From the NCBI GenBank assembly GCA_964019415.1, contig OZ025880.1, forward strand, positions 3,402,813 to 3,466,812: a stretch of DNA of 64,000 bases, written 5' to 3'. How positions within the stretch are numbered: position 1 is the stretch's first letter; every line of letters begins with the position of its first letter. This DNA is from Ianthella basta. Taxonomy: Eukaryota; Porifera; Demospongiae; Verongiida; Ianthellidae. The translations under genes were made by a program, and so were the position numbers. The notes beneath the pieces were generated by a model. The model was not told where the DNA came from, did not search any database, and was given only the letters and a program-made list of their open reading frames with translations. Shown piece by piece: positions 4,926 through 45,280 of the stretch.

Positions 4926-7900
4926 ATGTGCGTACGCGAGAAGACGGCCAAGGAGAAAGCCAAGATAAGCCTGTGCTTGGCTGCATTTCTTGCCTTGTGC
5001 GTCCCCCTGGGCTCCTGTGAAATCAACAGCTGCTCTCAGGACCTGTTGAACATCCAGTGTCGGGGCCGTTGCGCCGCCGCAGCCAGTACGAAGGTGCGAC
5101 TGGATAGTGTGACCGAACGTATTAGCTACTCCCTTCTAGTCAGTACAGCTTCATTCTGTATAGGTCTGTATATCACTATATGTCTCTCCTCTGATCTCTG
5201 TAGTCAATCCCGTTTTCTGATTGTGTTGAACGTTGCTGCGCCAGCAGTGGAGAGAGTTCAATGGTACGATCGCGTCCTACATGTGATACATAGCGGTTAG
5301 CTATCACAGCCGCATTAGCACAGCCAGTTGGGTTACATACTTTGCAGTAATATCTCTGTGCTAGTGTGTTTGCCACACTTAATTAATCATGCAGTTGCCA
5401 GAGAGATGTCCACTACAGGGATTAGATTGCTCGCAGATGCCTAATGCACTAAGCATATCTTCTGTGGCTTGGAAGGGCACTGGACTGCAGTTTCAATACA
5501 ACACTTCAATGCTAGAAACTGGGATTGAGGCTTGCAACATGATGCAACAAGAGACTGTCCCTAATGGGCTGCTTCCATTGATTGTCAGTGCAGTTACAGA
5601 CAATGGTACAAGTCATTTCTGGATTCTGGTTAGTAAACATTATCTAAATGTTAGCATACTCTTTGAGCATCACAATAGTAAGGAGTGCTATTGTGTAGAC
5701 TTAGAAACCAATAGATCTAGTCATGAGTGTCAACAGTAGGACATAGCGAAAGATAACGTTTGGAACTACACATGGTAAGGAAAGAAGGGGGGAAGGGAAT
5801 TTTTTTTCCCTTCCCCCCTTCTTCCCTTACCATGTGTATGAAGTGAGGGCTTCTCAGCTGGCTCAGGCATCAGAAAGGGGTTGGTTCTCTAATACCAGCT
5901 TCACAACAGGGTTGAAAACCTTGCCGACGTTTCGACAAGATGCTCTGGTCTTCTTCAGGGCGAAGATGCCTTGAAGAAGACCAGAGCATCTGGTCAAAAC
6001 GTCGGCAAGGTTTTCAACCCTGCTGTGAAGCTGGTATTAGAGAACCAACCCCTTTCTTACCATGTGTAGTTCCAAACGTTATTTTTCATTCGTGTCACCA
6101 TGGTACATAGACCATCTTAATTAGTAGGACATAGCATAATGAACCAGCGGGTAATGAATATATGTGGTTTTTTCCTGCAAAATGGTGGCCATGGGGGATA
6201 ATGTGTCCAGCAGTTCACAATGTTATTCCAAGACAGCACATCTGCAAGGCCTGTTTTACCATGCTAACAAATTTAGCCTTGTGTTCTACCACTAAGGGAT
6301 GGTCTTGCACTTTGCTTGCCCAGACAGACTTTTGACAAAGGTTAGTGAATTTTCTTCTGCTTTCATTGCTCCACTGGAGAACACAGAGCTTCTGTTCTGT
6401 GCTGTCGCTTCTACTGCTTAATGTCACTGGGGCTGTCTGAATGAATCAAGAGAACAGCTTGCTTGAATTATGTTTCAAATAGTGTTTTAAGGTGCCACTT
6501 AGAAGCAAATTGTTTTATTTGATATTTGAGTACCCCTGATTTGACACAAGTGGCTCCTTGTGGGTGGGTATATTGGTTGGTGCAGATGGATCTCTCTGGT
6601 AACCCAGCAGGAGAGACACTGTGGCTATGGATTCCTTCTATGTTTAGCTCAAAATTAACTCACCCTGAGCATCTATGGTCAAGCACTGTACCAACGAACC
6701 ACTATAATAAAACATTGCTGTGGAGGATATACAACTGATATGCAAAGCTGGAAGGTCACATGATAAGTGGTGAACAATTGCCTACTTGAGCATATGTTTC
6801 TATATGAAATCTTGTGAGTTCGGGTTGTCTCAGCATGTCGCATTATCAGTTCAGCATATGGGGCTGTTCCAACAGGAAAGGGAGATGCCTAGAAGACATG
6901 GGTGACACTTCTTGAAGGTTTGCAAACCCTGTGATATCATGGGAGCTCCCGTGATATCACAGGGTTTGCAAGTGTGGCATTGTTCCCCAGTTTGGCATGG
7001 ATACCAAGTGTGTACAGATTGTTGAAAATGTCGCAGAGGAGCCAGCCTTTCTACCGATTATGTACAAGGACAGGCAGTGTGAATCAGGAAGGTGTAGCTA
7101 TACTATTTACTTATCAAATTAATGATGTCATAGAGGCTCATTACTACAGATTGGGGAGCTACTGATTCTCTAGAGATCATGTGGCAGGTCAATAGGTGGA
7201 CAAAGTAAGACATTTCAACCACAAAGGCGATATCATGGGAGTGTGGCATTGCTTAAATTGCTTTAAATGAAGAAGGTAGCTAAACTGGACCAAAACAAAA
7301 AGAAACCAGAGGGTATGTTGTTATACACAAAGTAATGAAGTCCAATACTCATCTATCTGGCAGCTGCCTATGTCAGATGTTATAATTGGTAATTTGGTAT
7401 ACATACTACAATAGTGGTGGCAGAACATGATTGGCTTTGGAGGGCTACTTGGTGGGAAATCCTATTAGTATAGCCACTATTTGGGAATCAAGAATTGCTG
7501 GGAGGACTACAGCCAGTGATCACTGTGGCCATTCTCCATGCAGTAAACCCTATTTTGTGTATCGGATATGTTTCACATTAAGGAGGCGCCTGTTAAGTGT
7601 AAGTGGGAGTATGTGGGTGTGGTAGCTATGTCTACGCAGGTATTACCACAAAAAGTAACTATGGCACACCCCTTTATGCGTGAACCTGTGACCAACCTGC
7701 TAATATGGTTACCAGTATCACTGATGATCATGCTTGCTGTAGTCTAATGTCCTGCAGCACTAGAAGCATGACTCTCATGATATCTGATGTTCCTTTGCAG
7801 ATCCCAGGCCAGCACAACAAACTTGTGGTACCAGATGTGGGCTCTTGCACCAGTCTGTCTATGGCGACAGTCAATGAATGTGAAATGCAGGAGCTATCAA

Positions 7901-22200: not shown

Positions 22201-25200
22201 GTGTATGTGATGAGACCTTCACCATTGAGCATGCTCTCAGCTGCCCAAGGGGGGCTTTCCCAATGATCAGACATAATGAAGTACGAGACCTCACTGGAAT
22301 GTCGCTGACTGAGGTGTGCCACAATGTCAAGCTTGAGCCTGGATTGCAACCCCTAACAGGAGAAGAGCTGAACTGTAACACGGCCAACACCCAAGGCCAG
22401 GCAAGAGTGGACATAGCAGCAAGGGATTTCTGGGGCAATAGACAGATGACATTCTTTGATGTTAAGTTATTCAATCCTTTCGCCAAGTCTAACCGGAAAT
22501 TCCCATTGCACTCAAGCCTCAACCACCATGAGAAGATGAAGAAGATCGTTTGAACAAAGGATCATTGAAGTGGAGAATGGATCCTTCACTCCTCTTGTTT
22601 TCAGCACAACTGGGAGCATGAGTAGAGCTACTACCATCTTCTACCGGAAGCTAGCACACCTCCTATCGGAAAGGAGAAACCAGTCCTATGCGACCACAAT
22701 GGGTTGGCTGAGATGCCATCTTGGCTACTCACTCCTGAAATCAGCAATCTTGTGCATCAGAGGATCAAGGTCCAAGCCTCAGTTCATTCCCCGATTCCCA
22801 GATTCCACTGAACTAACCATCAGAGTCACACGCACATATCTAAAGCAACAAAAACTCACAGACTGCTCATATACAAAATTTTCCTTGACTCGCAATCTGA
22901 TTTATATGTATATATCAGTGCATTCTTGTTGTATATTAAAAAAATTATTCACCTGTACTAATGGTCACCCCGTATTACATTGAACGGCCACTGTGTAGAG
23001 TACAAATAGAACAAAGTGCAATTGTTAACAGCAGTCTGGAAAGATCTTCACTAAAGCAAGAGGGTCTTTAGCCTCCCTCCATAGGCCAGGTGTTCATAAC
23101 TTCGGTAAACACAGTAATTCCAAGCCAGATCCAGCACCATGGTTAACCGTCACCCTGTAGTAACCTTGTAACCTGTGATTACTGTGCATGATGCTAAGAA
23201 TAGTACCTTGTGTGTTGTATGTTGATAGTTGCTATTATTGTACTGTGCATATCTGATTGTATCTTCTTTTGGACTTACATCATGTATCACGCATGCTGAG
23301 TTGTTGTGCACATGTTGCTGTAGAGTGCTTGCCCTTGTAAGTTGAGTTTGCCAAGTGGCTTATTGATCTTGTTGTCCATTTGTTTCATTACCCGTGGTTC
23401 GTGGTCGTCAGTTCGTGTCTAGCTGTAACACTTTGGCGACGAAGGTGGGATGCTTGATGGCGACACACGGAGTGCTGGACAGTTTCGAGCCAAAGAAAGA
23501 AGACTGGGAGTCCTACACCGAGCGGTTAGAACAGTATTTCGTGGCCAATGATGTTCAGGCGGCGGCAAAGCAGCGAGCGATCCTCCTTAGCGTGTGTGGG
23601 GCACAGACTTATCAGTTGATCCGGAACTTGGTGGCTCCAAGGAAGCCAACCGACTGCGATTTCAGGGAGCTAGTAGACATGGTGCAAGCCCACCACCGCC
23701 CGAAGCCGTCAGTAATCGTTCAGCGATTCACATTCAACACGCGGGAGCAGAAAGAAGGAGAAACTATCGCCGACTTTGTGGCGGAGTTACGGCGATTGAC
23801 GGAGCACTGCGACTTCGGGGCAACATTGAACGATATGTTGCGAGATCGGATCGTCTGCGGCATCAGGGATGCCAGTCTACAGCGTCGATTGCTTGCAGAG
23901 CCGGAGCTTACTTTCAAGAAAGCGTTTGATTTGTGCCAGGCTGCAGAATCAGCTGCCAAAAACACGAGGGAATTGCAAGCAGCACAGCCAAAGGCGAGAG
24001 AGGACCCAGTCATGGTGGTGAAGACACAAGGGTCATCAAGGGAGCACTCAACTCCTAAGACCTGCTACCGTTGCAATGATGCAACCCACCTGGCAAATCA
24101 CTGCCCCTTCAAAACAGCTATCTGTCGCCAGTGCAACAAGAAAGGGCACCTCGCTAGGGCTTGCAGAAGTAAGGGTAAGGGCAAGAACGCACCTACCCAG
24201 CAAACTCACAAGGTTGAAGGGGAAGGTGAGGAGTCTGAGTCCTATGAGCTTTTTACCATGTCTCAGAGACGGAATGCGCCAATCACAGTCCGCCTAAGGG
24301 TGAATCAGGTGGAAACTACCATGGAGGTTGACACGGGTGCATCAGTCTCCATTATGAGCGAGACCACTTACAAGAAGTTGTGGCCTGAAGGTAACTTCCC
24401 CTTGCAGCCCTCTGATGCTAAATTGCGCACCTACACAGGAGAAAGTCTCTGCATTTTGGGATCCATTCCAGCCCATGTGCAGTATGCAGATCAAGAGGCC
24501 TCTGGAACACTTCTAGTGGTGAGCGGAAATGGTCCAAGCCTGATGGGAAGAGACTGGCTGCAGAAGATTCAGCTCAACTGGCATGCTATCTGCCAAGTTG
24601 TCAAAGACAAGCCACAAATGCTTGAAGATGTCCTGCAAAAGCATGCAGTAGTGTTTTCGGAGAAGATGGGGGTTGCCAAGAACATTGTGGCAAAAATCCA
24701 TGTCGACCCAGAAGCAACTCCAAAGTTTTACCGTCCACGTTCGGTGCCATATGCGATCAAGGGTAAAATTGAGCAGGAGCTCCAGCGGTTGGAGAATGAA
24801 GGTGTGGTATCCAAGGTAGTGGAATCTGAGTGGGCTGCCCCAATAGTACCAGTGATGAAGTCAGATGGATCGGTCAGATTATGTGGGGACTACAAGGTCA
24901 CTGTAAATCAGGCCATCAAGTCAGATTCTTACCCACTGCCACGCACGGAAGACATCCTTGCATCCTTGGCAGGTGGTAAAGCCTTCACAAAACTTGACCT
25001 TGCCCATGCTTACCAACAGCTGCCTTTGGATGAGGATTCTAAGAAAGTCGTCACTGTCAATACCCACAAAGGGTTATACCAATTCAACCGCCTACCATTC
25101 GGAGTCTCATCTGCACCATCAATTTTTCAGCGAGCCATTGAGGGCATTCTGCAGGGATTGGACCATGTCTCCGTGTACTTGGATGACATACTTTTGACAG

Positions 25201-28200
25201 GAACGACTGAAGAGGAGCACCTCCAGCTATTGCAAGAAGTCCTCAGCCGACTGGAGGAAGCGGGACTCCACCTGAAGAAGAGCAAATGTGCTTTTATGCT
25301 CCCGCGTGTTGAGTACCTGGGGTACATTATCTCGGCTGATGGCATTCAACCTTCTGCAGAAAAGGTTCGTGCCCTGATGGAGGCACCCAGGCCCGAGAAT
25401 ACGACTCAGCTAAGGTCATTCTTGGGGTTGCTGAATTTCTACAACAAGTTCTTGCCACAATCGTCAACATGGTTGGCACCTTTGCACCAGCTGTTGAAAC
25501 AGAATGCCAAATGGGCATGGGGAAAGGAACAAGACCTTGCTTTCAAGAAAGCTCAAGAAGCCCTCTTGTCTTCAGATGTTTTAGTTCACTACAACCAAGA
25601 TCTACCATTGATCCTGGAGTGTGATGCCTCTCCTTATGGAGTGGGGGCTGTGCTTTCTCACGAGATGGAAGATGGGTCCACCAAGCCAGTTTCATTTGCA
25701 AGCCGTTCTCTCACACCAACAGAAAAAAGGTATGCCCACCTAGACAAAGAAGCATTGGCCATCATTTTTGGGGTTAAGAGGTTCCATCTCTACCTGGCTG
25801 GACGAAAGTTCAGTATTGTTTCAGATCATAGGCCACTACAGTACCTGTTTGCAGAAACGAAACCAGTGTCAGCGATGGCATCGGCAAGGATTCAACGTTG
25901 GGCTTTGACCCTGAGTGCCTATGACTACACCATTAGGTATAAACCAGGACCCCAAAATGCCAATGCCGACCTGTTCAGCAGACTTCCCCTGCCCGAAACA
26001 CCAGCGGAAGTTCCATTACCCGGAGAGACCATATTGCTACTGGAGAACCTCGCAACATCTCCAGTCACAGTATCACAGATCAGGACAGCCACATCCAGGG
26101 ATCCCATGCTGTCAAGGGTGGCACAATTGGTATCTTCGGGGTGGAATGACCAAGATAACTCCATCACGCCTTCCTTCCAAAGGAAGAAGAATGAATTATC
26201 GATCCACGATGGCTGTTTGCTCTGGGGAAGCCGAGTTGTAGTACCACAAGTGCTACGTCCACAAGTGCTAGATGAACTGCATGAGAGCCATCCCGGAGTT
26301 TCAAGAATGAAGGCTATCGCGAGAGGGGTGGTGTGGTGGCCAGAAATGGATTCAGAGATTGAAAGCAAAGTGAACTCGTGCCGAGAATGCCAACTGAACC
26401 AGAAGACACCTGCCCAAGCCCCCCTCCATCCTTGGGAATGGCCATCCCAGCCATGGACAAGGCTGCACATTGATTATGCTGGGCCCTTCTTAGGGAAGAT
26501 GTTTTTAGTCGTCATTGACGCACACTCCAAATGGTTGGAGGTGGAGATGGTACATCTTCCAGGCACACTATCGAGAAACTGAGGTCCATGTTTGCAATGC
26601 ATGGCTTACCGGAGTTACTTGTTTCCGACAACGCCAGCGTCTTTACCAGTGCTGAATTCAAGGAATTCCTCAAGAGGAATGGTATCAGACATGCCACATC
26701 AGCACCTTATCACCCTTCCTCCAACGGGCTAGCTGAAAGATATGTACAAACCTTTAAAGTGGCAATGAAGAAGAGTTCTGCTGAAGACATCCAGCAGCAG
26801 CTATCGAGGTTCCTGTTCCATTACAGAACAACTCCTCACACAGTCACCGGAGTCTCGCCTGCTGAGCTGTTGTTGGGTCGCCGACTGAGAACACACCTAG
26901 ATCTCATGCGGCCTAGTGTGGCATCTCGTGTAGCCAGGGCTCAAGACCGCCAGAAGGCAGATCATGACAGATCCAGCCGGGACAGAAAGTTTGAGCCAGG
27001 ATCTTTGGTGTTTGTAAAGAACTTCACGGCAGGCCCTAATTGGCTACCTGGATGCGTCAGATCATTACGTGGGCCTTTGTCTTTTGAGGTAGAGTTGGAT
27101 GATGGCAGAGTTGTAAGGAGGCACGTGGACCATGTCCGAAGTAGACGGCGTGCTCCTTCCATGGATGAACCCTCCAACGGTGACATGGATGACGTTCCAT
27201 TGCCTTGGCCATCTGAGTCCACTGAACCAGTGGATGCTTCAAGTTCGGAGTCGAGCCACAGCACAACTCCACGGAGGTCCACTCGCACTCGCGGGCCCCC
27301 AGACCGGTACACCCCATGACTGAACACAATTCCCATTTAGGGGGAAGGGGTGTAGTAACCTTGTAACCTGTGATTACTGTGCATGATGCTAAGAATAGTA
27401 CCTTGTGTGTTGTATGTTGATAGTTGCTATTATTGTACTGTGCATATCTGATTGTATCTTCTTTTGGACTTACATCATGTATCACGCATGCTGAGTTGTT
27501 GTGCACATGTTGCTGTAGAGTGCTTGCCCTTGTTGTAAGTTGAGTTTGCCAAGTGGCTTATTGATCTTGTTGTCCATTTGTTTCGTTACCCGTGGTTCGT
27601 GGTCGTCAGTTCGTGTCTAGCTGCAACACACCCCCAGTCATTTCACAGTATCCAATGCTCTTGTCCTTCCTGAGGGCAAAAGGGCATTGTCTGGTTGACT
27701 GTCTTTGGAATGTGTCCCACTGTGTAATCGACTTTCATCATGACCATGTAGAACATTGCCCAGGTAGTATATTCTACCACAGAATGTTGCGTGGGCAATA
27801 TTTTTCACCATAGAAAATTGCCCGGGCAAAACTTTTTACCGTAGAATATTGCCCTAGCAATGTTTTTCACCATAGAATATTGCCTGGGCAATGCTTTTCA
27901 TATAGAATATTGTCCAGGTAATGTTTTTTCACCATAGATATTGCCGTTTTTCACAGTAGAATATTGCCTGGGCAATATTTTCTACCATAGAATATTGCCG
28001 GGGCAATATTTTGACCATAGAATATTGCTGCAGAGTTGTTCAGCTGAGGAAGACTCCGGATCGAAATGTCCTGAATTGTTGTTTGACCTTCATGTTGTGT
28101 GAAGTTGCTCGTAAAAGCCTCTACGTTCACAAATGACAAAACAATGAGCCTCTACAGTACCAGTATCACCTAGCCAATCCTCATTGATACTGTCATTGTA

Positions 28201-44360: not shown

Positions 44361-44752
44361 TCACCCCCCCCCCCCCCCACTATAAGCCATACCATTGATG
44401 AAGGCAGCAGTCAGCTGTTGAAACATTTGGTACAAAACCTTTGGTTGGTGAACCCTACTGTTTACCCCTTCTATTACTACTTAAAAGGATAAATGAAGAT
44501 ACCGTAATCACTCTCTTTCCTGATGTGCTGAGGCAAGTCATATATGTGTGGGACAGGCTACAAACACCGTCACATCTCAGCTTGCCTGGTCAAAAGTGAA
44601 ACTATTGAGGTCATCCCCATGTTACAGCATGGTGTGCAAACTCAATGGCAAATAAACGGCTGTCCATGCCTTCCAGTTGGCACTGCGTAGAGGGTACGGT
44701 GTCTTCACTATCCATAGCTTGCAATCGATGTCTTCTCCATCGCTTCTGCTAA

Positions 44753-44979
44753 TGAAGTGAGGGCTTCTCAGCTGGCTCAGGCATCAGAAAGGGGTTGGTT
44801 CTCTAATACTAGCTTCACAACAGGGTTGAAAACCTTGCCGACGTTTCGACCAGATGCCCTGGTCTTCTTCAGATGCTCTGGTCTTCTTCGCCCTGAAGAA
44901 GACCAGAGCATCTGGTCGAAACGTCGGCAAGGTTTTCAACCCTGTTGTGAAGCTGGTATTAGAGAACCAACCCCTTTCT
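44753..44979. mobile_element. Foldback element with hammerhead-like cores, copy B
   Basis: A 227-bp element, over 90% identical by eye to 5839-6057, flanked by its own 11-bp direct repeat GCTTCTGCTAA (44742-44752 and 44980-44990). The plus-strand arm (44884-44935) has the full core CUGAAGA, stem II GACCAG/CUGGUC, GAAAC, GUC. The bases 5' of the core pair with GGC-A-AAGG after the GUC (3 bp, one mismatch, 4 bp). The minus-strand arm has the same core but has lost stem I. Confidence 0.85.
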
Positions 44980-45280
44980 GCTTCTGCTAATATTCACAAG
45001 TTCCATAAGTTCTTTTTTGTTAGCACGTCTAGTGCGATTGTCTGTTTCGATCCACCTACTAGACAAGCCACCACACCAACACACACAACACTGCTGAGCC
45101 ACACCTTGAGCTCAGCACTACCAACTACCACTACCTTAGACTATAAGGTGGCAGGGTCACCTAAGTTGCATGCATATTTATCAACTTTTCCAATCCCTAC
45201 AGAGACAAGTGAGAGTCTTTCAGCATTTTGAACCTCCTTTCACTTTCAGAGCTTAAACACAATGTCAAGTTTTCAATGAA

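Follow-up and report, generated by a model that had tools for sequence, protein, structure and literature searches.

Within the window analysed here, a stretch of 64,000 nucleotides from the genome of the sponge Ianthella basta (assembly GCA_964019415.1, contig OZ025880.1, positions 3,402,813 to 3,466,812 of the forward strand), we found a head-to-head insertion of 219 bp. This insertion, referred to as copy A (5839..6057, assigned to the minus strand as the strand of its tailed arm), is probably a two-sided insertion product of a Penelope-like retrotransposon (PLE) that lacks the open reading frame (ORF) of the element. It seems to represent the shortest class in a continuum of two-sided PLE insertions, and similar stubs across the genome look like records of where PLE RNAs began.

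Copy A is composed of two pseudo-long terminal repeat (pLTR) arms, a tailed one on the minus strand (5872..5967), whose 5' end at 5967 is a transcription-start-like position, and a tail-less one on the plus strand (5968..6057). The inverted parts (5872-5961 and 5968-6057) are 90 nt long, 96% complementary and separated by a spacer of 6 nt, and the minus strand of copy A folds with -181.7 kcal/mol (z = -27), which confirms the 219-bp inverted repeat described in an earlier sequence-only reading. The unit is not symmetric: 33 nt (5839..5871, minus strand) are present at one end only. These 33 nt represent the PLE tail and equal the initial codons (ATGCCTGAGCC...) of the PLE ORF. Comparison of the flanks showed a 13-bp direct repeat CTTACCATGTGTA, which forms the left (5826..5838) and right (6056..6068) target-site duplication, the latter reaching as much as 2 bp into the element. 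The exact 11-bp duplication reported before is therefore present, but its length has to be given as 11-13 bp because it depends on the placement of the element edge. The reported nesting of copy A in an older inverted-repeat element also holds, since foldback arms were found on both sides of it. This older host foldback has outer arms at 5748-5782 and 6053-6087 and includes a hairpin with 33-nt arms (5767-5838, arms 5767-5799 and 5806-5838). Its region (5735-6135) is bordered by a 13-bp direct repeat AGTAGGACATAGC at 5735-5747 and 6123-6135.

The source of the arms can be read from L071, a less decayed relative in the same assembly, in which the pLTR arm and the 33-nt piece continue into an ORF reading MPEPAEKPSLHSYLRERYG. 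Parts of this ORF matched the Pfam families RVT_1 (30.5 bits, cut-off 29.6) and GIY-YIG (22.9 bits, cut-off 22.6), and no Pfam family was matched by two further ORF pieces of L071. The layout of L071 is an inverted piece, a direct pLTR, the ORF, into which something else seems to have been inserted, and a second pLTR. An ORF with reverse transcriptase (RT) and GIY-YIG domains tied to a pLTR is hence found in the relative and not in copy A itself; pLTRs, an inverted pLTR and the optional tail are found as well. Judged from its sequence, L071 has the anatomy of a PLE, with the 33-nt piece as its tail, and the link to Penelope elements that had been suggested for copy A is borne out by an arm that leads into such an ORF. 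Beside the 3' pLTR of L071 (5972-6904 of that region, minus strand) we noticed by eye a different RT-like frame (AYDRVGRDKLWKVLEEYG...), and the PLE may have been inserted next to or into a long interspersed nuclear element.

The tailed arm of copy A encodes a hammerhead-like core on the minus strand (CTGAAGAAG...GAAACGTC, 5926..5958), consisting of CTGAAGA, an extra A, stem II, GAAAC and GTC, with the predicted cut between 5926 and 5925. Stem II of this core reads CTTGTC, and nearly every listed copy has CTGGTC. Three such cores were present in the whole window compared to none in 100 shuffles, the other two belonging to a second insertion, copy B. The sequence-only reading had assigned hammerhead cores to both arms of copy A. 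This applies to the minus-strand core, but the core in the tail-less arm (5971..6003, plus strand) is broken by the changes C3 to T and G12 to A, in the usual hammerhead numbering. A segment of 54 nt starting at the transcription-start-like A folds into stem II and a stem I of 8 bp that contains one bulge, which is the hammerhead layout, with this A in the last pair of stem I. Besides this conserved core with stems I and II, there are results that speak against a hammerhead. No Rfam family reached its gathering score in the window, the hammerhead model was absent around copy A even at E values up to 10, and no hammerhead match was obtained for L071, so that the covariance-model check proposed earlier turned out negative. 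Furthermore, segments of 66-67 nt from L071 and copy B favour a non-hammerhead fold, and a different fold is likewise obtained for the decayed arm of copy A. Low-threshold Rfam matches around copy A were mostly to microRNA hairpin models and were discarded, as any long hairpin would match these. PLE hammerhead variants without helix III are described in PMC7761336, and Rfam hammerhead models presumably expect the helix that these variants lack. Ageing copies seem to tend to lose the ribozyme cut site, because C17 of the ribozyme sits in a CpG and most of the arms in regions L091-L110, which were selected for a base other than C at this position, have a T.

We screened the complete assembly to which the window belongs (209 Mb, 96 contigs). 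The exact ribozyme motif, which had the extra A after A9 built in so that all matches presuppose it, occurred at 830 places, compared to 0 for the reversed control. A BLAST-type search with copy A yielded at least 82 matches, both orientations counted, from the best 40 of 1212 candidates. A pattern for short head-to-head pairs tailed on one side gave 471 matches, a total that counts two-tailed pairs twice and that pairs with mutated motifs escape, and the control gave 0 in each bin. According to the distance between two fixed arm motifs, these matches were distributed over the bins 6-36 (47), 37-67 (47), 68-98 (119) and 99-129 (258). In total 75 distinct short pairs were read, some of them found with a query or pattern that held the tail and the others by the ribozyme motif alone.

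Arm ends fell into two clusters. The upstream cluster lies at the A of ATCTTCGCCCTGAAG, where 74 of 181 arms ended exactly and another 22 ended one base further, in a biased sample that was skewed to intact ribozymes and partly to GGCAAGG starts and was used for this cluster only. Among arms found by the ribozyme motif, 16 of 30 ended between one base before and two bases after this A. A TATA box (TATAAATA) in L071 has its first T 30 nt upstream of the arm-end A, which is the textbook spacing between TATA box and transcription start. The cluster also coincides with the end of ribozyme stem I and would correspond to the transcription start of the PLE RNA. Since arms at this upstream cluster outnumber those at the cut in the samples read, most template RNAs were probably uncut, which agrees with the data from lizard.

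The second cluster falls precisely on the cut predicted for the ribozyme. With position 0 defined as the first base past this cut (GGCAAGG) and arm starts placed by ungapped alignment, 24 of the 47 rows of the 6-36 bin had an arm start at 0, none was seen at -1 to -6, and 35 were seen at +1 to +6. We then removed a repeat place (C8:7666486) as well as two of the three C19 rows and one of the two C11 rows, which nearly equalled neighbouring rows and were regarded as duplicates. In the remaining 43 rows with 86 arms, 22 arms started at 0, followed by 11 at +2 as the next highest value, and the mean was 2.8 arms per remaining position from -6 to +15. Because the distance limit of the 6-36 bin disfavours upstream starts, a genome-wide count was added. 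It sorted arms by the class of the base just before them and was restricted to transversions. At position 0, only arms with A or G before GGCAAGG were therefore counted; a preceding T was rejected as a sign of truncation, because most such arms in L091-L110 carry GUU in place of GUC at the CpG and are intact in other respects. In this count 45 arms were found at 0, 9 at -1, 4 at -3 and 19 at +1 (8 of the latter from four places having both arms at +1), and all four counts contain substitutions in intact arms. Among the readable arms in L091-L110 preceded by A or G, three of five were clean truncations at 0 (L092, L094 and L105). The cluster is the pattern that run-off on ribozyme-cut RNA would leave and gives indirect support, short of proof, to the proposed RNA cut after GUC.

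The substitutions within the genome-wide counts weigh against such a cut, and so do several further observations. Arms L093 and L109 were not clean truncations, 7 of 94 arms in the 6-36 bin began 7-12 nt upstream of the cut, arm starts at +1 and +2 were likewise elevated, and joining by shared bases can displace apparent arm ends. It is quite conceivable, although we would not favour it, that the ends at the cut site are RT stops or favoured joining points instead of ends of ribozyme-cut RNA. Position 0 adjoins the stem I junction, the neighbouring positions +1 and +2 are raised, and an arm at 0 was also present in 12 of the 28 pairs joined with shared bases. An RT stop would however be expected on entry into stem I, approximately 7-8 nt earlier, and only 4 arms were found at +7 and 6 at +8. 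At another GG, located at +5, just 3 arms were found, and 10 of the 15 pairs without shared bases still had an arm at 0.

Exactly one tail was found in 72 of the 75 short pairs read. Two pairs without tail and one with two tails are exceptions that count against a strict rule. The result was similar in the pairs that were found by the ribozyme motif alone, without using the tail, where 14 of 15 had one tail. All eight long copies L071-L078 carried the tail at exactly one outer end, in a count on 20 regions that leaves out L079 (a direct tandem) and L080-L090 (short pairs). Among the matches listed, one tail was present at 280 of 287 places (46, 47, 97 and 97; 100 of 258 rows in the 99-129 bin and 100 of 119 in the 68-98 bin) and the tail motif occurred on both sides at 7, one of which (L039) probably has its second tail motif by chance from the target duplication. 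In the lizard PLE, the protein is able to cut and to extend either strand, and the tail is bounded by two RT start sites (PMC11167929). The one-tail rule suggests a strand-specific choice between the two RT start sites, with one strand using one site and the other strand the second.

The tail distribution also bears on self-priming (snap-back), in which a single cDNA would fold back and serve as its own template, a mechanism that PMC3846280 puts forward for the head-to-head PLE copies of a bdelloid rotifer. We consider this explanation unlikely for the pairs described here, because such a self-copy should have the tail on both sides, which is contrary to the count of one-tailed pairs, and the arms are often unequal (e.g. 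+15 and 0, or +6 and 0). Consistent with it is a recurrent class of pairs joined within the self-complementary stem II, with a gap of 69 at 23 of 97 places among the matches listed for the 68-98 bin. Three members of this gap-69 class (L112, L114 and L115) were read, and the class may have arisen by snap-back or by joining aided by the hairpin.

Exact duplications flanked 66 of the 75 pairs, with lengths of 10-15 bp that are possibly over-read by 1-3 as the search let the edges shift by a few bases, and none were found in 750 mispaired-flank controls. All 66 sequences differed from each other, and the variable-sequence target-site duplication of a PLE is thus present; the genome search and tabulation of target duplications that the sequence-only reading had proposed gave this result. 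An A/G marker was identical in both arms of 70 of 70 pairs (5000 shuffles: mean 59.0, highest 66), and the length of a C-run was identical between the arms in 62 of 69 pairs (5000 shuffles: mean 48.8, highest 58). Because the arms share both features above every shuffle, the two cDNAs of a pair appear to derive from the same or sister RNAs. Inner junctions differed among pairs, recurrent ones coincided with short shared sequences, and the short pairs graded into longer copies carrying ORF pieces. The short pairs seem to have arisen from the PLE itself, each by an insertion of its own, because the duplications all differ, the junctions vary, there is a continuum with longer copies and one tail is present. 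This does not support the former view of copy A as a short non-autonomous relative that moves via an RNA with self-cleaving ends, or as an independent small mobile element. A short non-autonomous family replicating as a unit via its own ribozyme-bearing RNA would agree with numerous copies of like length and with some junctions that recur, but the recurrent junctions lie on short shared sequences and the others vary. Together with the continuum to ORF-bearing copies this makes such a family very improbable. A transcript of the copy A unit would furthermore form one long hairpin, with one sense and one antisense core inside it. A foldback or miniature inverted-repeat-like DNA transposon, to which long inverted arms and target duplications would also apply, can practically be dismissed, as the arms match the start of a retrotransposon ORF, the inner junctions vary, and a tail at one end in nearly all pairs is at odds with identical inverted outer ends.

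For the origin of copy A from a PLE we propose the following steps. The PLE protein would make a staggered cut of about 11-13 bp, and each 3' end would prime reverse transcription in the PLE RNA, one starting at the tail end and the other 33 nt closer to the RNA 5' end. The two cDNAs would extend towards this 5' end, which in the model is the transcription start (the A of ATCTTCGCCC) shortly before the hammerhead or, less often, GGCAAGG at the hammerhead cut. The cDNA ends would be joined head-to-head, either through a small number of shared bases or with short filler sequence, and gap filling would yield the target duplication. If the template RNA started further upstream, as in a tandem PLE, longer inverted copies with ORF pieces would result. 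Tentatively, and with slightly less than even confidence, we suggest that a hammerhead at the extreme 5' end of the PLE RNA might cut a fraction of it in vivo and that the cut RNA might serve as template. Each insertion would moreover be built from two unlike RT starts, one per target strand, which would make the PLE integration complex functionally asymmetric.

Inverted pLTRs, tails and hammerheads of PLEs are already known. In endonuclease-containing Penelope elements of Adineta vaga (PMC3846280) an inverted pLTR is located beside a direct pLTR, one inverted pLTR has a 31-bp tail, target duplications are 8-10 bp long, and foreign sequence is found between solo pLTRs. The head-to-head unit, which had been regarded as unusual, matches this published arrangement and is here without ORF. 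In contrast, abundant ORF-less pairs, a strict one-tail rule and end clusters are not described in the passages of that paper considered here, self-priming is preferred, and the word 'hammerhead' is absent from its main text. Poseidon of Anolis carolinensis (PAc, PMC11167929) resembles the present element in a hammerhead at the start of the pLTR-ORF and in two internal RT start sites around the tail, but in the Ianthella basta element the cut precedes the ATG of the tail; for PAc, no cut RNA ends were seen, and in vitro there was no strand difference in RT start site. Minimal type I hammerheads of PLEs and Terminons (PMC7761336 and PMC7229834) are likewise located in pLTRs and have a core without proper helix III, whereas in the present element the end of stem I coincides with the transcription-start-like position and a possible genomic footprint of cutting is seen. 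Non-LTR retrozymes of animals (PMC7229834) are also small, non-coding, hammerhead-bearing and multicopy with target duplications, but these have direct repeats, canonical type I hammerheads and circular RNAs in contrast to single head-to-head units. A retrozyme origin was therefore rejected, as direct tandem monomers were not found and the sole direct pair (L079) includes ORF sequence. For the one-tail rule and the cut-site footprint no description was found in open-licence literature, and their novelty is thus provisional.

The second head-to-head insertion in the window, copy B (44753..44979, minus strand), has its tail at 44753-44785 and is flanked by the target duplication GCTTCTGCTAA (44742-44752 and 44980-44990). 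Hammerhead-like cores are located in its tailed arm (44840..44872, minus strand) and in its tail-less arm (44893..44925, plus strand). Elsewhere in the window (23394-27319), two overlapping ORFs resemble a Ty3/Gypsy-type gag-pol as judged by eye.

A large number of short insertions that map RNA 5' ends to the base would make both the ribozyme question and the order of PLE insertion steps testable from genome sequence, wherever a species has stubs of this kind. Any model of PLE integration is sharply constrained by the one-tail rule. If the proposed interpretation is true, the genome would represent a natural assay of PLE biology, with a 5'-end hammerhead, cut template RNA and asymmetric integration.
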